From NCBI GenBank assembly GCA_000496135.1, contig KI542674.1:310001-374000 (forward strand): DNA of 64,000 bases. The letters are read 5' to 3'. The position numbers and the translations under genes were made by a program. Below the pieces are notes generated by a model. The model saw nothing but the letters and a program-made list of their open reading frames with translations. It ran no database searches and was not told the origin of the DNA. Below are positions 51,129 to 58,195 of the stretch, one piece after another. How positions within the stretch are numbered: the stretch's first letter is position 1; each line of letters starts with the position of its first letter. The stretch is from Thermoplasmatales archaeon E-plasma. Its GTDB lineage: Archaea > Thermoplasmatota > Thermoplasmata > Thermoplasmatales > Thermoplasmataceae.

Positions 51129-51572
51129 TCATAATTTCTTACTCGTATTTTTTGAAATTTCACTTAAAACATCTTTGCATAATAATACTGCCTTTTTAGA
51201 AGGTTCCATATATTTCAGAGCAATTTTTTCAAGGCTTTCTTCATCTATATTATAATTGAATGTGTATCCACTGGTTTGACGGTTGCCAAGCAGTTCAGGA
51301 AGCAGGGACCTTACCATTTCCTTTATTTTATCTCTATTAAGTTTTGATATTTTTTGGGAATTAACAATATTGTTTTCCACAATTTCAATTATGTTATGAT
51401 TTTTTGGTGGTTCAATACCAAGTGCAAACAGGACAGCTTTGAGAGATATCTCAACAGCCATTTCTTCGCTGTACAAACATGTATTATATACCCCCTCCTT
51501 TGCCATTGTTTCGGCCGTTTTAATCCAGCTTTCTGCTGTCTCCATGGCCTTCTCTGATATTCCTATTCCCAT
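51129..51572 (-). CDS. HEPN-domain protein
   Basis: A 147-residue all-helical HEPN protein: AMETAESWIKTAETMAKEGV, CLYSEEMAVEISLKAVLFALG, and the ending EKIALKYMEPSKKAVLLCKDVL. These are usually RNases or toxins paired with a nucleotidyltransferase. The typical Arg-x4-6-His is not clear (NRQTSGYTFN instead), so the activity is doubtful. It overlaps the nucleotidyltransferase gene by ten bases. Confidence 0.8.
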   Translation of the reverse strand: MGIGISEKAMETAESWIKTAETMAKEGVYNTCLYSEEMAVEISLKAVLFALGIEPPKNHNIIEIVENNIVNSQKISKLNRDKIKEMVRSLLPELLGNRQTSGYTFNYNIDEESLEKIALKYMEPSKKAVLLCKDVLSEISKNTSKKL

Positions 51573-52147
51573 ACGAGCATTTCACCTGATTTTGTATTTT
51601 TACGTTTATGCTTGATCTTTGCAATTTTATCCAGAAATTCAGAAACTGTGCTTCCACGTTGAAAAAGAACTATTCCGTAATCAGCTATTTCAAAGTATAA
51701 CGGATTTAGGACTTCCAGATCTGCAGGCGTCAATATGAGCGGACTTATAAATAGTGACAGGCCTCTTTTTATCAGTATATCCTGATATGAATTTACCTCC
51801 CTTCTTTTCAAATTTAAATACTCCTGGTATTCGATGAATTTAGAGTCTGTTATAATGGCTAAATCAATATCACTAAATTTAGAAAAACTGTTCTTTGTAA
51901 TGGAACCATAAAGTATTACACCCAGTGTGTGAGGATTTTCATCTATCAAGTCCACAAAACGCATTATGTAATTTTTTATATCCTGATCCATTTTCAACAG
52001 GGTAAGTTGCTTCCCTGCAGTTTGTTTTATAACCTCTGTGAAAGAACTTCGTCTGCCCGTAATTTGCTCTATAATTTGCTTAAATTCACTTAGTTCTGAA
52101 TATGCTTCTTCAGTGAGCAGGGTCTGCTTGAATTTTCCCATAATCAT
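51563..52147 (-). CDS. MNT-type nucleotidyltransferase (HEPN partner)
   Basis: A 194-residue protein. Residues 1-55 form a helical region with RRSSFTEVIKQTAGKQLTLL that looks like an antitoxin DNA-binding start. Then VILYGSITKNSFSKFSDIDLAII gives the GS-x9-D-x-D active site. In MNT/HEPN pairs this protein AMPylates and silences the HEPN toxin. Met3 is a possible start. Confidence 0.82.
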   Translation of the reverse strand: MIMGKFKQTLLTEEAYSELSEFKQIIEQITGRRSSFTEVIKQTAGKQLTLLKMDQDIKNYIMRFVDLIDENPHTLGVILYGSITKNSFSKFSDIDLAIITDSKFIEYQEYLNLKRREVNSYQDILIKRGLSLFISPLILTPADLEVLNPLYFEIADYGIVLFQRGSTVSEFLDKIAKIKHKRKNTKSGEMLVWE

Positions 52148-53496: not shown

Positions 53497-53636
53497 GGGA
53501 GCATGGGGTAGTCAGGCATCCTATCGGGCTCCAGTCAGGGTATGTTTAGCAACGGGTCATCTGATTCATGATGAGTGACTGGAACTAAGAACCGGGAAGA
53601 GACCCGCAGATCTGGGTTCAAATCCCAGTGCTCCCA
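53497..53636 (+). tRNA. tRNA-Trp(CCA) with intron
   Basis: Acceptor GGGAGCA/TGCTCCC with discriminator A, anticodon CCA at 53531-53533, T arm CTGGGTTCAAATCCCAG. The anticodon stem CGGG/CCCG is separated by 67 extra bases (about 53535-53601), the canonical 37/38 intron position. Splicing leaves 73 bases. The integrase gene overlaps the second half on the other strand. Confidence 0.93.
53535..53601 (+). ncRNA. tRNA-Trp intron with box C/D-like guide features
   Basis: The intron holds CTGA (53561-53564) followed by TGATGAG (53569-53575), an internal D'/C' pair. CGGGTC before CTGA pairs with GACCCG of exon 2, and the fifth base upstream of CTGA faces C39, a position known to be 2'-O-methylated by haloarchaeal tRNA-Trp introns. 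GACTGGA (53577-53583) pairs with TCCAGTC around the anticodon. Outer C and D boxes are not clear. Confidence 0.6.
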
Positions 53637-54548
53637 TTTGGTCGCAACTGCTCCCGCGGGAATTTGATCCTCAAGAGTCATTTTCTCACTGCCACGAAAA
53701 AGCTTCTCGACAGCGAGTTTTCCCTTTTCCGCTGCTTCTTTTGAGGACAGGTGTTCGTATATAGTTGTGGTCTCAATGCGGGCATGTCCCAACAGAATTT
53801 GTACCATCCTTAGATCGTTCGTGGTTCTATACATATTCGTTCCGTAGAAGTGTCTGAACGAATGGGCATGGAGTTCCGGCATCCCTGTCTTTATTCCTAT
53901 CTTCTTGATCATGGTCCTGAGATAAGTATATGGCATTCTTCCTTGATCACTTGTGAAGAGAGATCTCTGATCAGATTGCATTCTGTAATTTTTGATATAT
54001 CCTTCCAACCTATTCAAGAAATCATCTGGAAGAGGAACATATCTATCTCTTTCTCCCTTCTCGGATCTGATATAAAGCATTCCCTCTTTGATGTCTTCCA
54101 TGTTGACTTTTTGCATTTCTCCTATTCTCATGCCTGAATATGCAAGGATTTCGATATCAAATCGGTTACGAAGCCACACCTCTTTATTATGATGGGAGTC
54201 ACAAAATTTAAGGATCCTTTGCAGCTGATCAGTTGTTGGGAGAAATGGATCCGGAGAAGGTTCTTTTTTTAGCCTTGGAGTGGATGTCTGGAATCCAAGG
54301 AAACGATACCAGTATTGCAGGTCCATCATTTCAATCCTCAGAGTCTTTTTCTTTATTCCATCCCTCTGACGTGATTCAATATACGAGTATAAGGCCTTGA
54401 TATCCGGTTTTGAGATATCAATCCTTGAATCAAGGAACCTTATCCTTCTTGCTCTTCTTTCTGCTGTTTGGAGGGCATCTCCTTTTCCTACTCTCTCAAG
54501 GTAAAAATCATTCAATTTTAAATCAAGATCTGGAACATTCTCACTCAT
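53535..54548 (-). CDS. int: tyrosine recombinase (integrase)
   Basis: 337 residues from the ATG that overlaps the upstream stop (ATGA); a further ATG 18 bases up is less likely. The N-terminal part is a SAM-like core-binding domain. Catalytic residues are Arg141 (YSGMRIGE), the HSFRH box with Arg232, His255 (LLGHARIET) and Tyr264 (TTTIYEHLS). The last 33 residues, from WEHWDLNPDLRVSS on, are the antisense reading of tRNA-Trp, and its stop lies in the tRNA intron. The gene is complete in the integrated state. Confidence 0.9.
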   Translation of the reverse strand: MSENVPDLDLKLNDFYLERVGKGDALQTAERRARRIRFLDSRIDISKPDIKALYSYIESRQRDGIKKKTLRIEMMDLQYWYRFLGFQTSTPRLKKEPSPDPFLPTTDQLQRILKFCDSHHNKEVWLRNRFDIEILAYSGMRIGEMQKVNMEDIKEGMLYIRSEKGERDRYVPLPDDFLNRLEGYIKNYRMQSDQRSLFTSDQGRMPYTYLRTMIKKIGIKTGMPELHAHSFRHFYGTNMYRTTNDLRMVQILLGHARIETTTIYEHLSSKEAAEKGKLAVEKLFRGSEKMTLEDQIPAGAVATKWEHWDLNPDLRVSSRFLVPVTHHESDDPLLNIP

Positions 54549-54904
54549 CTCTGCACCCCGTTCCATTTGGGAAGGAATAAACTTCTTCCTTTGGCATACT
54601 GATAACCCACCGATTCCATTTCTTTACACAAATTTTTAAAATCATCTACCTTGGATGGAATTCTTATCTTTTCTCCATCGATTTGAAGATCATATTTTGA
54701 AACGATCGCCATAAGACCTTGATTCGTTCCTTGTCCAGGTTTTTCTTCAGGTTTACCAGAGGTCCACAATCCAAATGGCTGAATTGCTCGATCCATCAAC
54801 AACCTGGTTGCCTCTCCGTTTAATTTTCCAGATGCTTTGATTTTCTCATCCACAGTCTCCATCCTTCCAATCATTTCATCAACCCATTTCGAAAAATCAT
54901 TCAT
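54545..54904 (-). CDS. element protein upstream of the integrase, not recognised
   Basis: About 119 residues from Met at 54904 (54922 is also possible). It reads as helices (MNDFSKWVDEMIGRMETVDE) then DLQIDGEKIRIPSKVDDFKN. Its stop overlaps the integrase ATG (ATGA). No known family. Confidence 0.55.
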   Translation of the reverse strand: MNDFSKWVDEMIGRMETVDEKIKASGKLNGEATRLLMDRAIQPFGLWTSGKPEEKPGQGTNQGLMAIVSKYDLQIDGEKIRIPSKVDDFKNLCKEMESVGYQYAKGRSLFLPKWNGVQR

Positions 54905-54999: not shown

Positions 55000-55152
55000 T
55001 CAAATCTTCTCCATCAATTTTTTATCTCTAGACTTGGTCCAGTATCTTTCTCCATTATCATTCATCTTCAAATTGTCAATGGATTTCACAATCCTAAGAA
55101 TCTGCGGATCTGCTCTTTCCCATCCTTCTTTTGTCAAGTGTGATCCTTTCAT
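55000..55152 (-). CDS. small element protein, 50 aa
   Basis: MKGSHLTKEGWERADPQILR and KMNDNGERYWTKSRDKK; mixed charge, helical. The ATG overlaps the stop of the zinc-finger gene (ATGA) and is preceded by GAGGTATTGAG as a ribosome site. No family recognised. Confidence 0.5.
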   Translation of the reverse strand: MKGSHLTKEGWERADPQILRIVKSIDNLKMNDNGERYWTKSRDKKLMEKI

Positions 55153-55313
55153 CTCAATACCTCAGAATGCTTATGTTTCAGATGATTAGAACGAGATTTC
55201 ACAGTTACTATGTGTTCACAAAAACCACATCTATAATGTGGTTGAGTCTTTCCGTTCTTCCCTGCATAAGTGAAAAAATTGTTTGAGTCAAAATACTTTC
55301 CTTGGTAAATCAT
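55149..55313 (-). CDS. C2H2-like zinc-finger protein, 54 aa
   Basis: YRCGFCEHIVTVKSRSNHLK, then HKH, gives Cys-x2-Cys, 11 residues, and His-x2-His-x-His, the plan of a single C2H2 finger with a basic recognition helix. Such mini-fingers are common on archaeal plasmids and viruses as DNA-binding regulators. Its ATG overlaps the preceding stop and its stop overlaps the next ATG. Confidence 0.65.
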   Translation of the reverse strand: MIYQGKYFDSNNFFTYAGKNGKTQPHYRCGFCEHIVTVKSRSNHLKHKHSEVLR

Positions 55314-55531
55314 TGAGAAACACCTTCGTTAAATCTGATTGGAGATCTTCTTCCAAACTTCCTCAATGTCTTACCTTTCATGTTCCTTGTTGCACAAAGG
55401 TATTTTTCCAGAATATCTGATTCAGGAATCACATTTTTTAGGTTCTCCAGTGTTCTTTCGATTGCTAATAGATCAACAAAATCATGATACGTTCGGGATC
55501 TCTTTCTTTCCTTTCGAGCATTTGGGGACAT
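55310..55531 (-). CDS. basic element protein, 73 aa
   Basis: MSPNARKERKRSRTYHDFVD starts a basic protein with a middle helix (LAIERTLENLKNVI) and the ending RKFGRRSPIRFNEGVSQ. The ATG overlaps the stop of the membrane peptide (TAATG) and follows GGAGG at 12-13 bases; the frame extends further upstream, but that part is the antisense of nothing known and collides with two better genes. Confidence 0.5.
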   Translation of the reverse strand: MSPNARKERKRSRTYHDFVDLLAIERTLENLKNVIPESDILEKYLCATRNMKGKTLRKFGRRSPIRFNEGVSQ

Positions 55532-55638
55532 TAAATTCTGCCTCCGAGAAAAACATAAGACAGTGAACCAACTATGACAACAAACACAGTTGAAACAAGA
55601 AGGAACATCTGCACCATCGATAAAATGAAATTCCTCAT
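55531..55638 (-). CDS. cassette A membrane peptide, 35 aa
   Basis: MRNFILSMVQMFLLVSTVFV and VIVGSLSYVFLGGRI: one hydrophobic helix with a short start and a basic end. The ATG sits in the stop of the RHH gene (GGCATGA) behind GAGGTTGAGGC. First membrane gene of the five regulator/membrane cassettes. Confidence 0.55.
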   Translation of the reverse strand: MRNFILSMVQMFLLVSTVFVVIVGSLSYVFLGGRI

Positions 55639-55793
55639 GCCTCAACCTCTTGCTTGTGAGGGTGCTCATTACAACCTGCATATGCTTTCACGCACAATCT
55701 TACCGCATGAGAGAAATTTGCAGCGGTTCTGCTCTCAACCAAGCCTTTAAGGAATTCAAATTCATCTCTTTCAAGAGAAATACTAATCTTCAT
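55635..55793 (-). CDS. cassette A ribbon-helix-helix regulator, 52 aa
   Basis: MKISISLERDEFEFLKGLVE, then SRTAANFSHAVRLCVKAYAG: beta strand, helix, turn, helix of the CopG/RHH fold, which dimerises to bind operators. The C-terminal HKQEVEA is encoded by the same bases that form the ribosome site and start of the membrane gene. It is divergent to the cassette B regulator 109 bases away and heads the chain that ends in the integrase. Confidence 0.65.
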   Translation of the reverse strand: MKISISLERDEFEFLKGLVESRTAANFSHAVRLCVKAYAGCNEHPHKQEVEA

Positions 55794-55902
55794 CTTCCTA
55801 CCTTCACTTACCAAGTCATACCACTTCCATTAATAAATATTCTTACTTTACCATACTTTAGAGCAAGAATTGAAAAGTATATCCTTTTCCTACCAAGTAG
55901 CA
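55794..55902. promoter_or_regulatory. divergent control region between cassettes A and B
   Basis: 109 bases holding four copies of a TACCA word: TACCAAGT (55809), TACCACTT (55819), TACCATAC (55849) and TACCAAGT (55891). Offsets from the first copy are 10, 40 and 82 bases, near whole turns of the helix. They are candidate RHH half-sites. Confidence 0.45.
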
Positions 55903-56049
55903 ATGAAGAAAAAAGTCTCAGTGGCCATAGACGAAGATCTCCTGATCTGGGTCGAAGACCAGATTCAGAAGAAGCGATTTGCCTCCGTTTCCCATGCAGT
56001 GAATTATTCACTGAATGAAGTGAAAAAGCAAGGAGAGAAACTCTCATGA
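55903..56049 (+). CDS. cassette B ribbon-helix-helix regulator, 48 aa
   Basis: MKKKVSVAIDEDLLIWVEDQ, then IQKKRFASVSHAVNYSLNEV: a complete RHH domain and little else. Its stop overlaps the ATG of the membrane gene (ATGA). Confidence 0.65.
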   Translation: MKKKVSVAIDEDLLIWVEDQIQKKRFASVSHAVNYSLNEVKKQGEKLS

Positions 56050-56369
56050 AGTATCCCGATAAGGTTGCTTTCCTTGTATTGCTTATTGCAGGTTTTCTGT
56101 ATGCGCAGTATCTTATGGGGAGTGCCGCATGGATCCAATTGTTCGGCTTTCTTCCCCTACCATCATCCCAGTATGTAAACGGTTTGCTTCTTGCAATTGC
56201 TTGCATTGTTCTCGTTTCCTTAGATATCATGTCTATAATTGATCCGAATTGGAAATTGTTCAAGTTCATCTTCTTCTCCTCAGAGCAAACCCTGCCTTTA
56301 GAAAGAAAACAACTACCAGGAAAGTCAGGGCTCCCTCCGAAACCAGCGCAAAAACGAAAAAGATCTTGA
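56046..56369 (+). CDS. cassette B membrane protein, 107 aa
   Basis: Two membrane helices (VAFLVLLIAGFLYAQYLMG and YVNGLLLAIACIVLVSLDI) separated by a short outside loop, then a basic tail of about 35 residues ending KRKRS. The last 104 bases are antisense to the 3' end of the cassette C membrane gene. No family recognised. Confidence 0.6.
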   Translation: MKYPDKVAFLVLLIAGFLYAQYLMGSAAWIQLFGFLPLPSSQYVNGLLLAIACIVLVSLDIMSIIDPNWKLFKFIFFSSEQTLPLERKQLPGKSGLPPKPAQKRKRS

Positions 56370-56472
56370 ACTGCCTGACTTCCAAGAGATAATATCCCAT
56401 GTATATTCCCGTTTCCATGCAGAGAATGAACAGGATAGCCCAGTTGTAAGGCCACTTTATTTTCAATCTCAT
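56266..56472 (-). CDS. cassette C membrane protein, 68 aa
   Basis: MRLKIKWPYNWAILFILCME begins the first helix; the second is IFFVFALVSEGALTFLVVVF; the end is FALRRRR. It starts at the ATG immediately after the RHH stop. A longer frame from the preceding ATG (222 codons) runs antisense through cassette B and shows no protein character. Confidence 0.6.
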   Translation of the reverse strand: MRLKIKWPYNWAILFILCMETGIYMGYYLLEVRQFKIFFVFALVSEGALTFLVVVFFLKAGFALRRRR

Positions 56473-56646
56473 TCATGCCTCAACCTCCTTCTTGTGGGGC
56501 TGCTCTTCAAGGGCAATAGACCTGATCTTTTCTCTCACGGCTTCTATAATAAACTCACTACGATTTCTGTATCCCATCTTGCTCTCGGAAATTGCCTTTT
56601 CAACGCTCTCTATAAGACTATGTGGCAATTTGATAGTGTCATACAT
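56473..56646 (-). CDS. cassette C ribbon-helix-helix regulator, 57 aa
   Basis: MYDTIKLPHSLIESVEKAIS, then YRNRSEFIIEAVREKIRSI: a clear RHH protein. Met at 56646 follows GAGGGAAAAAGG; an ATG at 56673 would add nine residues. The tail HKKEVEA repeats the A and E ending. It is close to the cassette D regulator in the second helix (YRNRSEFI.EA.REK.RSI). Confidence 0.72.
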   Translation of the reverse strand: MYDTIKLPHSLIESVEKAISESKMGYRNRSEFIIEAVREKIRSIALEEQPHKKEVEA

Positions 56647-56763
56647 CCTTTTTCCCTCATTGTTGCTATACATTACTAATTCATTCCCCCTATTAAATTG
56701 TTGTCATACATTACAACTGTCTTACTCCCAAGTGTTAATTTCTTTATGGCATAATTGCTATGT
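56647..56763. promoter_or_regulatory. divergent control region between cassettes C and D
   Basis: ATACATTAC occurs twice (56668-56676 and 56706-56714), and the inverse GTATGG/GCTATGTAT lies at the cassette D start. AT-rich elements for both directions are present. These repeats are candidate operators of the two related RHH proteins. Confidence 0.4.
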
Positions 56764-56925
56764 ATGGCAACCCAATACACCACAGTCAAGATTCCTGACC
56801 CTATTCTTGAGCGGATAGAGGAGATTATTCGATCACATCCAGAGTATGCATACCGTAATCGTTCTGAATTCATCGTAGAGGCAATACGAGAGAAGGTAAG
56901 ATCTATTGAATCAAGGGAGAAGTGA
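56764..56925 (+). CDS. cassette D ribbon-helix-helix regulator, 53 aa
   Basis: MATQYTTVKIPDPILERIEE, then YRNRSEFIVEAIREKVRSI. A paralogue of the cassette C regulator on the opposite strand, with the same strand-helix-helix layout. It lacks the EVEA ending. Confidence 0.72.
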   Translation: MATQYTTVKIPDPILERIEEIIRSHPEYAYRNRSEFIVEAIREKVRSIESREK

Positions 56926-56931
56926 TTAACC

Positions 56932-57147
56932 CTGGATGACAAGAAATTACTGAACTTAGGAATAATTCTAATTATTTTAGGTATAATTTTGTTACCCGCA
57001 GGATACTTTATGACTTCATTCCTTGTTTCCATTGGAATTACCTCCTATTTTGTCACTATTGAGGCATTTACTTACCTCGCGGTTGCAACCCTCGTCGTTT
57101 TTGGTTCCTATCTTATTATTGACTCTAAAATCCTCAAGAGAAGGTGA
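56932..57147 (+). CDS. cassette D membrane protein, about 71 aa, non-AUG start
   Basis: In frame with the RHH gene after its TGA, the frame opens with LDDKKLLNLGIILIILGIIL and has a second helix (YLAVATLVVFGSYLIID), ending KILKRR. No ATG, GTG or TTG stands before the first helix; CTG at 56932, six bases after the stop, is the likely start, or the two may be linked by readthrough. The 3' half is antisense to the cassette E membrane gene. Confidence 0.5.
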   Translation: MDDKKLLNLGIILIILGIILLPAGYFMTSFLVSIGITSYFVTIEAFTYLAVATLVVFGSYLIIDSKILKRR

Positions 57148-57381
57148 AGTCTTGATTTCTTTCACGGGACGCAGGTAACTATAATACAAAGAAACTAAGA
57201 TCAAATAAAGAAAAAGCGAAAAAACAAATCCTGCGACAATCTCATAAAAATTCATAGGACGAAATTGATATTTTAAAGGAGAATTACGAGACATCCATTG
57301 ATAAAACAATGAATCTAAATATGCGCCAATATCTGTAAATATAGCAAGAATAAGACTGATGACTAAGATTCTCCGATTCAT
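57016..57381 (-). CDS. cassette E membrane protein, 121 aa
   Basis: MNRRILVISLILAIFTDIGA gives the first helix; VAGFVFSLFLYLILVSLYYS the second; a hydrophilic, Asn- and Lys-rich tail of 50 residues follows. The ATG overlaps the AbrB stop (GGCATGA) behind GGAGGTTGAGGC. The last 132 bases are antisense to cassette D. Confidence 0.6.
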   Translation of the reverse strand: MNRRILVISLILAIFTDIGAYLDSLFYQWMSRNSPLKYQFRPMNFYEIVAGFVFSLFLYLILVSLYYSYLRPVKEIKTSPSLEDFRVNNKIGTKNDEGCNREVSKCLNSDKIGGNSNGNKE

Positions 57382-57563
57382 GCCTCAACCTCCTGTTTGT
57401 GTGTTTTTGTTTGATGATCTGCCGACTCCTCTTCGTCTCCCTTTAAAACCTCCCGAATGTCAACAATGAGTCGGTCTCCTTCATGGATATTCAATTTTTT
57501 ACGAATATCCTGTGGGATTTGCCCTCGTCCGGCTATTCCCATTTTTATTATAGTTTGAATCAT
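57378..57563 (-). CDS. cassette E AbrB-type regulator, 61 aa
   Basis: IIKMGIAGRGQIPQDIRKKL and NIHEGDRLIVDI form an AbrB/SpoVT DNA-binding domain of about 45 residues, then an acidic linker and the tail THKQEVEA shared with RHH cassettes A and C, though the folds are unrelated. It is divergent to the winged-helix gene across a region with a 20-base repeat. Confidence 0.78.
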   Translation of the reverse strand: MIQTIIKMGIAGRGQIPQDIRKKLNIHEGDRLIVDIREVLKGDEEESADHQTKTHKQEVEA

Positions 57564-57574
57564 GGCATATCACA

Positions 57575-57594
57575 TTTGGCAATAATGCCATATG
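57575..57594. repeat. 20-bp palindromic repeat, copy 1
   Basis: Identical to 57618-57637; contains TGGCA-ATAA-TGCCA. Confidence 0.8.
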
Positions 57595-57617
57595 TATAGA
57601 AAGATATAAACTTATTG

Positions 57618-57637
57618 TTTGGCAATAATGCCATATG
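57618..57637. repeat. 20-bp palindromic repeat, copy 2
   Basis: Identical to 57575-57594. A ten-base partial match (TTTGGCAATA) also occurs at 59101-59110. Confidence 0.8.
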
Positions 57638-57685: not shown

Positions 57686-58195
57686 ATGGACGTCTTGGAT
57701 CTGAAACATTCTAAATCTCTTCTCATAGAATTGAGACGAATTGGAACTGCTAAGAAATCTGATTTATTTTCGATTGTTAAGAGTCATCATATCCTTGATA
57801 AGGTGTTGAAAGCGCTTGAAGATGGTGGTTTTCTCACCGTTGAAGTTAGGAAACTTGGTCCTCCGGTATATACAATTGCCTTAACAAATAAAGGTAAAGC
57901 TGTCGCTGAACAACTAAAACGAGCTGAAGAGATATCCCAAGGTAAAACTTTCACATTTCCGGATAAATTCGCAATCATTTCTTATTTGTCTGACTCAGGA
58001 CACGTTACATTATCTCAATTGAAGGAACGATATCCGGATGCCTTGGATATCATAAGGGAATTTGAATCAATGAAGGTAATAAGGCAGGAGATCGATAATT
58101 CGAAGCATCCGCCGATTAATCGGATTGCATTAACGGAGAAAGGAGAGAAGATTGCGGAGTATTTGCAGAAGATTGAGGAGATTTTGAAGGGGTGA
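57686..58195 (+). CDS. double winged-helix regulator, 169 aa
   Basis: Two winged-helix domains in tandem. The first: KHSKSLLIELRRIGTAKKSD, wing PPVYTIALTNKGKAVAEQL. The second: KFAIISYLSDSGHVTLSQLK, wing INRIALTEKGEKIAEYLQ. The repeated ending (IALT.KG..(A/I)AE.L) shows internal duplication. It heads a plus-strand run of three genes and faces the AbrB gene. Confidence 0.7.
   Translation: MDVLDLKHSKSLLIELRRIGTAKKSDLFSIVKSHHILDKVLKALEDGGFLTVEVRKLGPPVYTIALTNKGKAVAEQLKRAEEISQGKTFTFPDKFAIISYLSDSGHVTLSQLKERYPDALDIIREFESMKVIRQEIDNSKHPPINRIALTEKGEKIAEYLQKIEEILKG

Follow-up and report, generated by a model that had tools for sequence, protein, structure and literature searches.

Three small regulator genes in an integrated element of the Thermoplasmatales archaeon E-plasma end in nearly the same stretch of bases, and each is followed by a gene for a small membrane protein. 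The element lies in a 64,000-nucleotide stretch of contig KI542674.1 (positions 310,001 to 374,000 of the forward strand), which we call the window and number from its first letter; to the right of an integrase gene it carries five regulator cassettes, A to E, of which A, C and E share the junction. The bodies of these three regulators are unrelated. The presence of the same tail, ribosome signal included, on three unrelated DNA-binding proteins suggests that the regulators have been exchanged and the seam kept, and we lean, if only slightly, toward the view that the cassettes are coupled operons of a regulator and a small membrane protein in which the DNA-binding part has been replaced in front of a retained tail of common descent.

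Three unrelated regulators end in one junction

All three junctions are read from the minus strand. The 24 bases of junction A (55635-55658, CACAAGCAAGAGGTTGAGGCATGA) and of junction E (57378-57401, CACAAACAGGAGGTTGAGGCATGA) each encode HKQEVEA and a stop, and those of junction C (56473-56496, CACAAGAAGGAGGTTGAGGCATGA) encode HKKEVEA and a stop; the 15-mer GAGGTTGAGGCATGA recurs exactly at 55635, 56473 and 57378. When the genome (8 contigs, 1.66 Mb) was searched with the 24-mer CACAARMARGAGGTTGAGGCATGA at up to three mismatches, the only three matches were these junctions, and the reversed control gave none. At up to two mismatches, GAGGTTGAGGCATGA found the same junctions and two other sites, against one for its reversed control. 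Across the 117 genomes of the order, nothing outside this genome came within one mismatch of AAGCAGGAGGTTGAGGCATGA. The near-identity of the three ends, which an original prediction made from the bases alone had pointed out, is thus borne out.

In each junction GAGGT stands six bases 5' of ATGA, placing a Shine-Dalgarno (SD) sequence inside the regulator gene. Stop and start overlap as ATGA in A and E, whereas in C a TGA adjoins an ATG and the membrane open reading frame (ORF) starts after the stop; the ATG within the ATGA of cassette C opens a separate, non-hydrophobic frame of 222 codons. The same bases therefore act as C-terminus, ribosome site and stop in all three cassettes, as had been proposed, and as start also in A and E but not in C, because the membrane ORF of C begins at the ATG beyond the stop. 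A comparison with shuffled sequences gave no signal of RNA structure at the junctions.

The proteins that carry these tails were compared with and without them. Once the last ten residues are removed, shuffled sequences score as high as the real pair in 355 of 500 trials for A and C, 154 of 500 for A and E, and 39 of 500 for C and E; for the full proteins, tails included, the corresponding counts are 0, 1 and 21 of 500. The shuffle tests on the tail-less bodies uphold the claim that unrelated proteins bear a common junction. The fold labels given to these proteins stand with qualification, those of C and E on matches near the cut-offs and that of A on weak relatives and a model. Regulator C (56473-56646, minus strand, from MYDTIK, with an alternative ATG at 56673), a probable ribbon-helix-helix (RHH) protein, scores 31.8 against the NCBIfam model YlcI_YnfO_N (cut-off 30) and 16.1 bits against Pfam RHH_1 (cut-off 20.5). 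Regulator E (57378-57563, minus strand), which is AbrB/MazE-like, scores 22.9 against MazE_antitoxin (cut-off 24.7) and 28.2 against TIGR01439 AbrB (cut-off 28.3). Regulator A (55635-55793, minus strand, from MKISIS, with an alternative TTG start at 55814) is RHH-like: it has no match in Pfam, its relatives match RHH_1 weakly and below cut-off, and its predicted model shows RHH topology, with two helices after a free N-terminus, for which the best matches in the PDB are NikR, ParD and MazE-type RHH proteins, none with an E-value under 0.001.

The nearest relative of C in the genome is its divergent neighbor D (51% identical), which ends in SREK before the stop and lacks the tail, and relatives of A in five other genomes have other C-terminal ends and differing downstream genes. 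Several relatives of A are coupled by ATGA to genes that, by our reading of their sequences, encode an integrase (L151), a primase-polymerase-like protein of 1065 residues (L148/L254) or a protein of 222 residues (L149). AbrB relatives of E end in RKNEVPS (L095) and QKQEVPA (L096), and KQEV may accordingly be old within the family of E itself.

How much of the junction the coupling signal explains

Part of the shared sequence is a common ribosome signal. The pattern GAGGT-N6-ATGA occurs at 27 sites in the genome, against 6 for its reversal, and 14 of the 27 are in-frame gene pairs, namely junctions A, C and E and 11 others; the remaining 13 were excluded, in a sorting that is our own reading, for ORFs that are very short or absent. 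GAGGT and ATGA at this spacing read E-V-x-x-stop, and the 11 other pairs end in EVHQ, EVFQ, EVHQ, EVLR, EVVK, EVDR, EVKR, EVFK, EVNQ, EVEK and EVLE. The pattern is a general coupling scaffold in this genome. The suspicion that the junction might be nothing but the common ribosome site of coupled genes is correct for this scaffold and fails for the bases around it: neither the hexamer TGAGGC nor the preceding CACAAR is found in any of the 11 pairs.

A wider set of junctions was drawn from 41 stretches, comprising part of the window and 40 stretches around related integrases, regulators or clustered pattern matches, and so picked around known elements. It holds 31 in-frame E[VA]xA-stop junctions, 3 from the window and 28 elsewhere, on proteins that we read as RHH, AbrB, VapB-like and zinc-finger-like, and a degenerate form of the motif stands at the ends of unrelated genes in 32 IMG/VR stretches. 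Because the scaffold is general and degenerate forms occur on unrelated genes, the motif as such is able to arise independently. These observations, with the 11 further EVxx-stop junctions of the genome, favor an explanation by convergence only, in which AGGAGGT-N4-GC-ATGA would be the best coupling site of the lineage and (Q/K)EVxA-stop would have been reached independently by three neighboring cassettes. The identity of A, C and E, however, exceeds the coupling constraint in both null sets. The three agree at 12 of 15 free positions, whereas none of the 165 control triples formed from the 11 other in-frame pairs exceeds 6, and a column-wise model gives such agreement a probability of ~6e-9 for one triple and 2e-6 for the best of 364. 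When 26 junctions of the E[VA]xA type serve as the control, A, C and E agree at 10 of 13 positions, where the maximum in 2600 triples is 8 (P ~4e-7). The bases upstream of the signal, treated below, also speak against convergence, which we consider rather unlikely, if the most serious of the alternatives.

The tail recurs on a third kind of regulator

Locus L092 (G111:C176), from another genus of the same family, encodes a VapB-like regulator that ends in LEEHRQKQEVEA and a stop, with TGA directly followed by ATG as in C. The regulator matches VAPB_antitox with an E-value of 0.043, below cut-off, and has two helices in its predicted model. Downstream lies a protein of 88 residues with two transmembrane (TM) helices, which begins MRL like membrane protein C. 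The pair is divergent from a winged-helix gene whose product is 45% identical over 77 residues to that of the window's own winged-helix gene (57686-58195, plus strand, HxlR-like by Pfam), itself divergent from E; the L092 regulator occupies the place held in the window by E. Recombinants in which a membrane gene is paired with a different regulator fold were thus found in part, in that L092 bears the tail on a third kind of regulator together with a membrane gene, while the same membrane gene joined to two folds was not found. Candidate relatives of the AbrB protein, the A-type RHH protein and the L092 regulator on viral contigs yielded no confirmed match.

Comparison of 406 junction pairs over 25 free bases places C and L092, and A and C, as the most alike (19 identities each), with A and L092 tied for third (18); most other top-scoring pairs join like regulators. 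Over the 15 bases that precede KxEVEA, A and C share 11, C and L092 share 11, and A and L092 share 10, where 300 other pairs average 4.1. The original prediction had viewed the junction as a swap point, or the cassettes as copied pairs with one half replaced. For the regulator side, half-replaced pairs are supported by the unrelated bodies, by the absence of the tail from D and from the relatives of A, and by L092, and would account for this pattern.

Membrane partners and the role of the tail

Beyond the junctions lie a membrane peptide of 35 residues with one TM helix in cassette A (55531-55638) and two-TM proteins of 68 residues in C (56266-56472) and 121 residues in E (57016-57381), all on the minus strand. 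Shuffle comparison detected no common sequence among the membrane proteins of the cassettes, and those of B, C and E gave no model above cut-off in Pfam, NCBIfam or PHROGs scans and match no known toxin family there. The boundary therefore has unrelated regulator bodies on one side of a short shared sequence and dissimilar membrane proteins on the other. A membrane partner follows all four junctions of the group formed by A, C, E and L092, compared with 1 of 27 others (P 1.6e-4). The partner of the AbrB gene at locus L085 was first read as a soluble gene and is probably not real, because its ORF is antisense to an RHH gene.

This link between tail and partner raises the question of whether the peptide itself is functional, binding or restraining its membrane partner as the C-terminal tails of antitoxins do, with interchangeable DNA-binding domains in front. 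The regulator folds are those of type II antitoxins, and the peptide is constant where its synonymous bases vary (AAG/AAA, CAA/CAG). The ribosome signal, though, dictates most of the tail, the partners lack both a common sequence and a match to any toxin model, and KQEVEA also ends regulators with soluble partners. We judge a functional peptide improbable. Slimmer still is the prospect of a modular antitoxin-like system, in which the DNA-binding domain (RHH, AbrB or VapB-like) and its operator would be interchangeable and one tail, acting as partner contact and ribosome site, would be retained for small membrane effectors; if true, this would be a toxin-antitoxin-like type of which one component is a membrane protein.

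The junctions can also be regarded as three direct repeats of 24 bases, in the same orientation and spaced by 838 and 905 bases. Exchange between them would yield new regulator-membrane pairs, so that they might be active crossover points, through short homology or as a recombinase site, among cassettes that are still reassorting. Yet the 117 genomes of the order showed no rearranged version of these cassettes, the repeat is by eye unlike the attachment region at the tRNA side of the element, and a search for a second copy of that region came up empty; active crossover is thus very unlikely.

Several observations weigh against the replacement of regulators before a common tail. The junctions of loci L074 and L260, an unlike pair, agree at 11 of 13 free bases, as many as A and C, which is what convergence would produce. 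In E, the likeness is confined to the last 8 codons, with 4 to 7 identities in the 15 bases upstream. Sharing of junctions within elements is significant with the window included (P 0.005 for same-x pairs, 0.001 for identity) and not significant without it (P 0.10 and 0.21), and a general homogenization of junctions inside elements was rejected on this ground. With the window counted once, the link between tail and membrane partner has a P of 0.007, or of 0.02 when L087 and L088 are added as one tail bearer; in these two loci KQEVEA ends near-identical RHH proteins whose downstream genes differ and encode soluble partners. Lastly, homology between membrane protein C and that of L092 is not established: it is suggestive by shuffles, 6 of 500 of which score as high, but does not hold up when 74 small two-TM ORFs serve as the comparison, since 6 of them score as high.

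As a separate observation, an element of genome G038 contains two different RHH genes (L074, 2760 and 3309, minus strand), one of them a relative of A, whose junctions are nearly identical to each other (GAGGTCACAGCATGA and GAGGCCACAGCATGA); this pair remains anecdotal.

A model for regulator exchange

If DNA-binding parts have indeed been exchanged in front of a retained tail, each cassette would be a small operon with a gene for a DNA-binding protein of 50 to 65 residues first and one for a small membrane protein second. Autorepression by the regulator is probable, and translation of the membrane gene would be coupled to that of the regulator, with ribosomes that finish the regulator restarting on the membrane gene by means of the SD in the tail. 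The sequence (A)GGAGGT would form this SD within the last codons, with ATGA six bases on, in a phase that reads (Q/K)-E-V-x-x-stop. On top of that general scaffold, A, C and E would have in common a tail of 8 to 12 codons of shared origin. The parts exchanged would be two unrelated RHH proteins, one AbrB protein and, in L092, a VapB-like protein, and the parts kept would be the coupling signal and the tail that holds it, along with the position for a membrane gene; copying or recombination would be the cause. Since the tail carries the coupling signal, a domain joined in frame ahead of it would leave the coupling to the downstream gene intact, and the DNA-binding part could be replaced with dosage control untouched.

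The regulator may have moved together with its operator. Two copies of TTTGGCAATAATGCCATATG (57575-57594 and 57618-57637, spanning 57575-57637) separate E from the winged-helix gene; these identical 20-mers with a palindromic core probably form an operator. Locus L085, whose AbrB protein is 60% identical to E, has a similar repeat pair with altered bases, and no operator palindromes were seen by eye at L092, where the regulator is VapB-like. The predicted operator thus tracks the AbrB protein, which fits an exchange of regulator and operator as a block. The promoter region between A and B is conserved with L074 (69% over 261 columns). Repeated ATACATTAC sites are candidate sites for regulator C.

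By the time one sees how mobile elements build new regulator-effector pairs, the joins have usually worn away. In this element the seam is readable as protein tail, ribosome site, stop and mostly start as well, and, if the model is true, it would give a simple rule for operon assembly through domain replacement in archaeal elements.

Organization of the element

A tyrosine integrase gene (53535-54566, minus strand) matches Pfam Phage_integrase, and the region is therefore an integrated element. On visual inspection, the integrase gene overlaps with its 3' end a plus-strand tRNA-like gene (53497-53635) that contains an intron and is presumably Trp-like; neither ARAGORN nor Rfam reported it, and this region is the probable attachment site. 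A duplicated site for the other end of the element was searched for and none was found, and the right end was not located. Comparison of 53.5-60 kb with the phage collection gave no DNA match. In the same-genus species represented by L090 (G070:C172), the left flank is conserved, aligning with 48.1-53.9 kb of the window, and a piece of the integrase is 94% identical over residues 215-343, the remainder being missing at the site. Just outside the element, two overlapping ORFs (51129-52147, minus strand) resemble what we take to be a HEPN-nucleotidyltransferase pair.

The five regulator genes alternate in direction, A, C and E on the minus strand and B and D on the plus strand, and a short hydrophobic ORF follows each. 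Regulator B (55903-56049), divergent from A, is RHH-like with a weak ParD match and lacks the shared junction; it overlaps by ATGA the following ORF, which encodes membrane protein B (56046-56369, plus strand, 107 residues). The RHH paralog D (56764-56925) is divergent from C, and a hydrophobic frame follows its TGA in the same frame (56926-57147, plus strand), with no ATG, GTG or TTG before 56989. D and this frame (56764-57147) may represent an RHH-membrane fusion that is broken or read through; alternatively, the frame may use a non-standard start. Divergent RHH pairs like C and D occur in four other genomes (L259, L260, L140 and L141, in G021, G078, G040 and G081), with small membrane ORFs beside those of G021 and G078.

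A fourth GAGGT-N6-ATGA junction, GAGGTATTGAGATGA at 55149 (within 55000-55313, minus strand), links a zinc-finger-like ORF ending in SEVLR and a stop to an ORF of 50 residues. Elsewhere, on G069:C1, matches to regulator and junction repeat about 29.4 kb apart (1811523/1840954 and 1816040/1845471), in what looks like a duplicated element.

Comparison with known systems

CopG-like RHH proteins are coupled to replication genes in archaeal plasmids of the pRN1 type. The relative of A that overlaps the 1065-residue primase-polymerase-like gene by ATGA resembles that arrangement, whereas the A-type RHH protein of the window is coupled to a 35-residue membrane peptide.

An ATGA overlap with an internal SD is an established means of coupling by termination-reinitiation in archaea and bacteria, according to passages of PMC6728339. 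The cassettes resemble that device in their ATGA or close stop-start and in the SD inside the upstream gene, a likeness shared by the genome's 11 further pairs with this geometry. As far as those passages go, the overlap is considered there as a coupling device, and a near-identical tail on unrelated proteins is not its subject.

Type II toxin-antitoxin operons, as outlined in passages of PMC2701414, likewise place a small RHH, AbrB or VapB-like protein first and its partner second, and within that class partners and DNA-binding folds are reassorted. The partners here, by contrast, are small membrane proteins; that paper notes that type II systems with a membrane component had yet to be detected, and it excluded such pairs.

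A parallel to the boundary itself is offered by the short conserved boundary sequences between modules of mosaic phage genomes in passages of PMC3029335, where a common sequence at a gene border likewise has unlike genes on one side. Compared with the boundaries in those passages, the border described here falls within a coding end, doubles as the coupling signal, and has recombinants that are partly shown.

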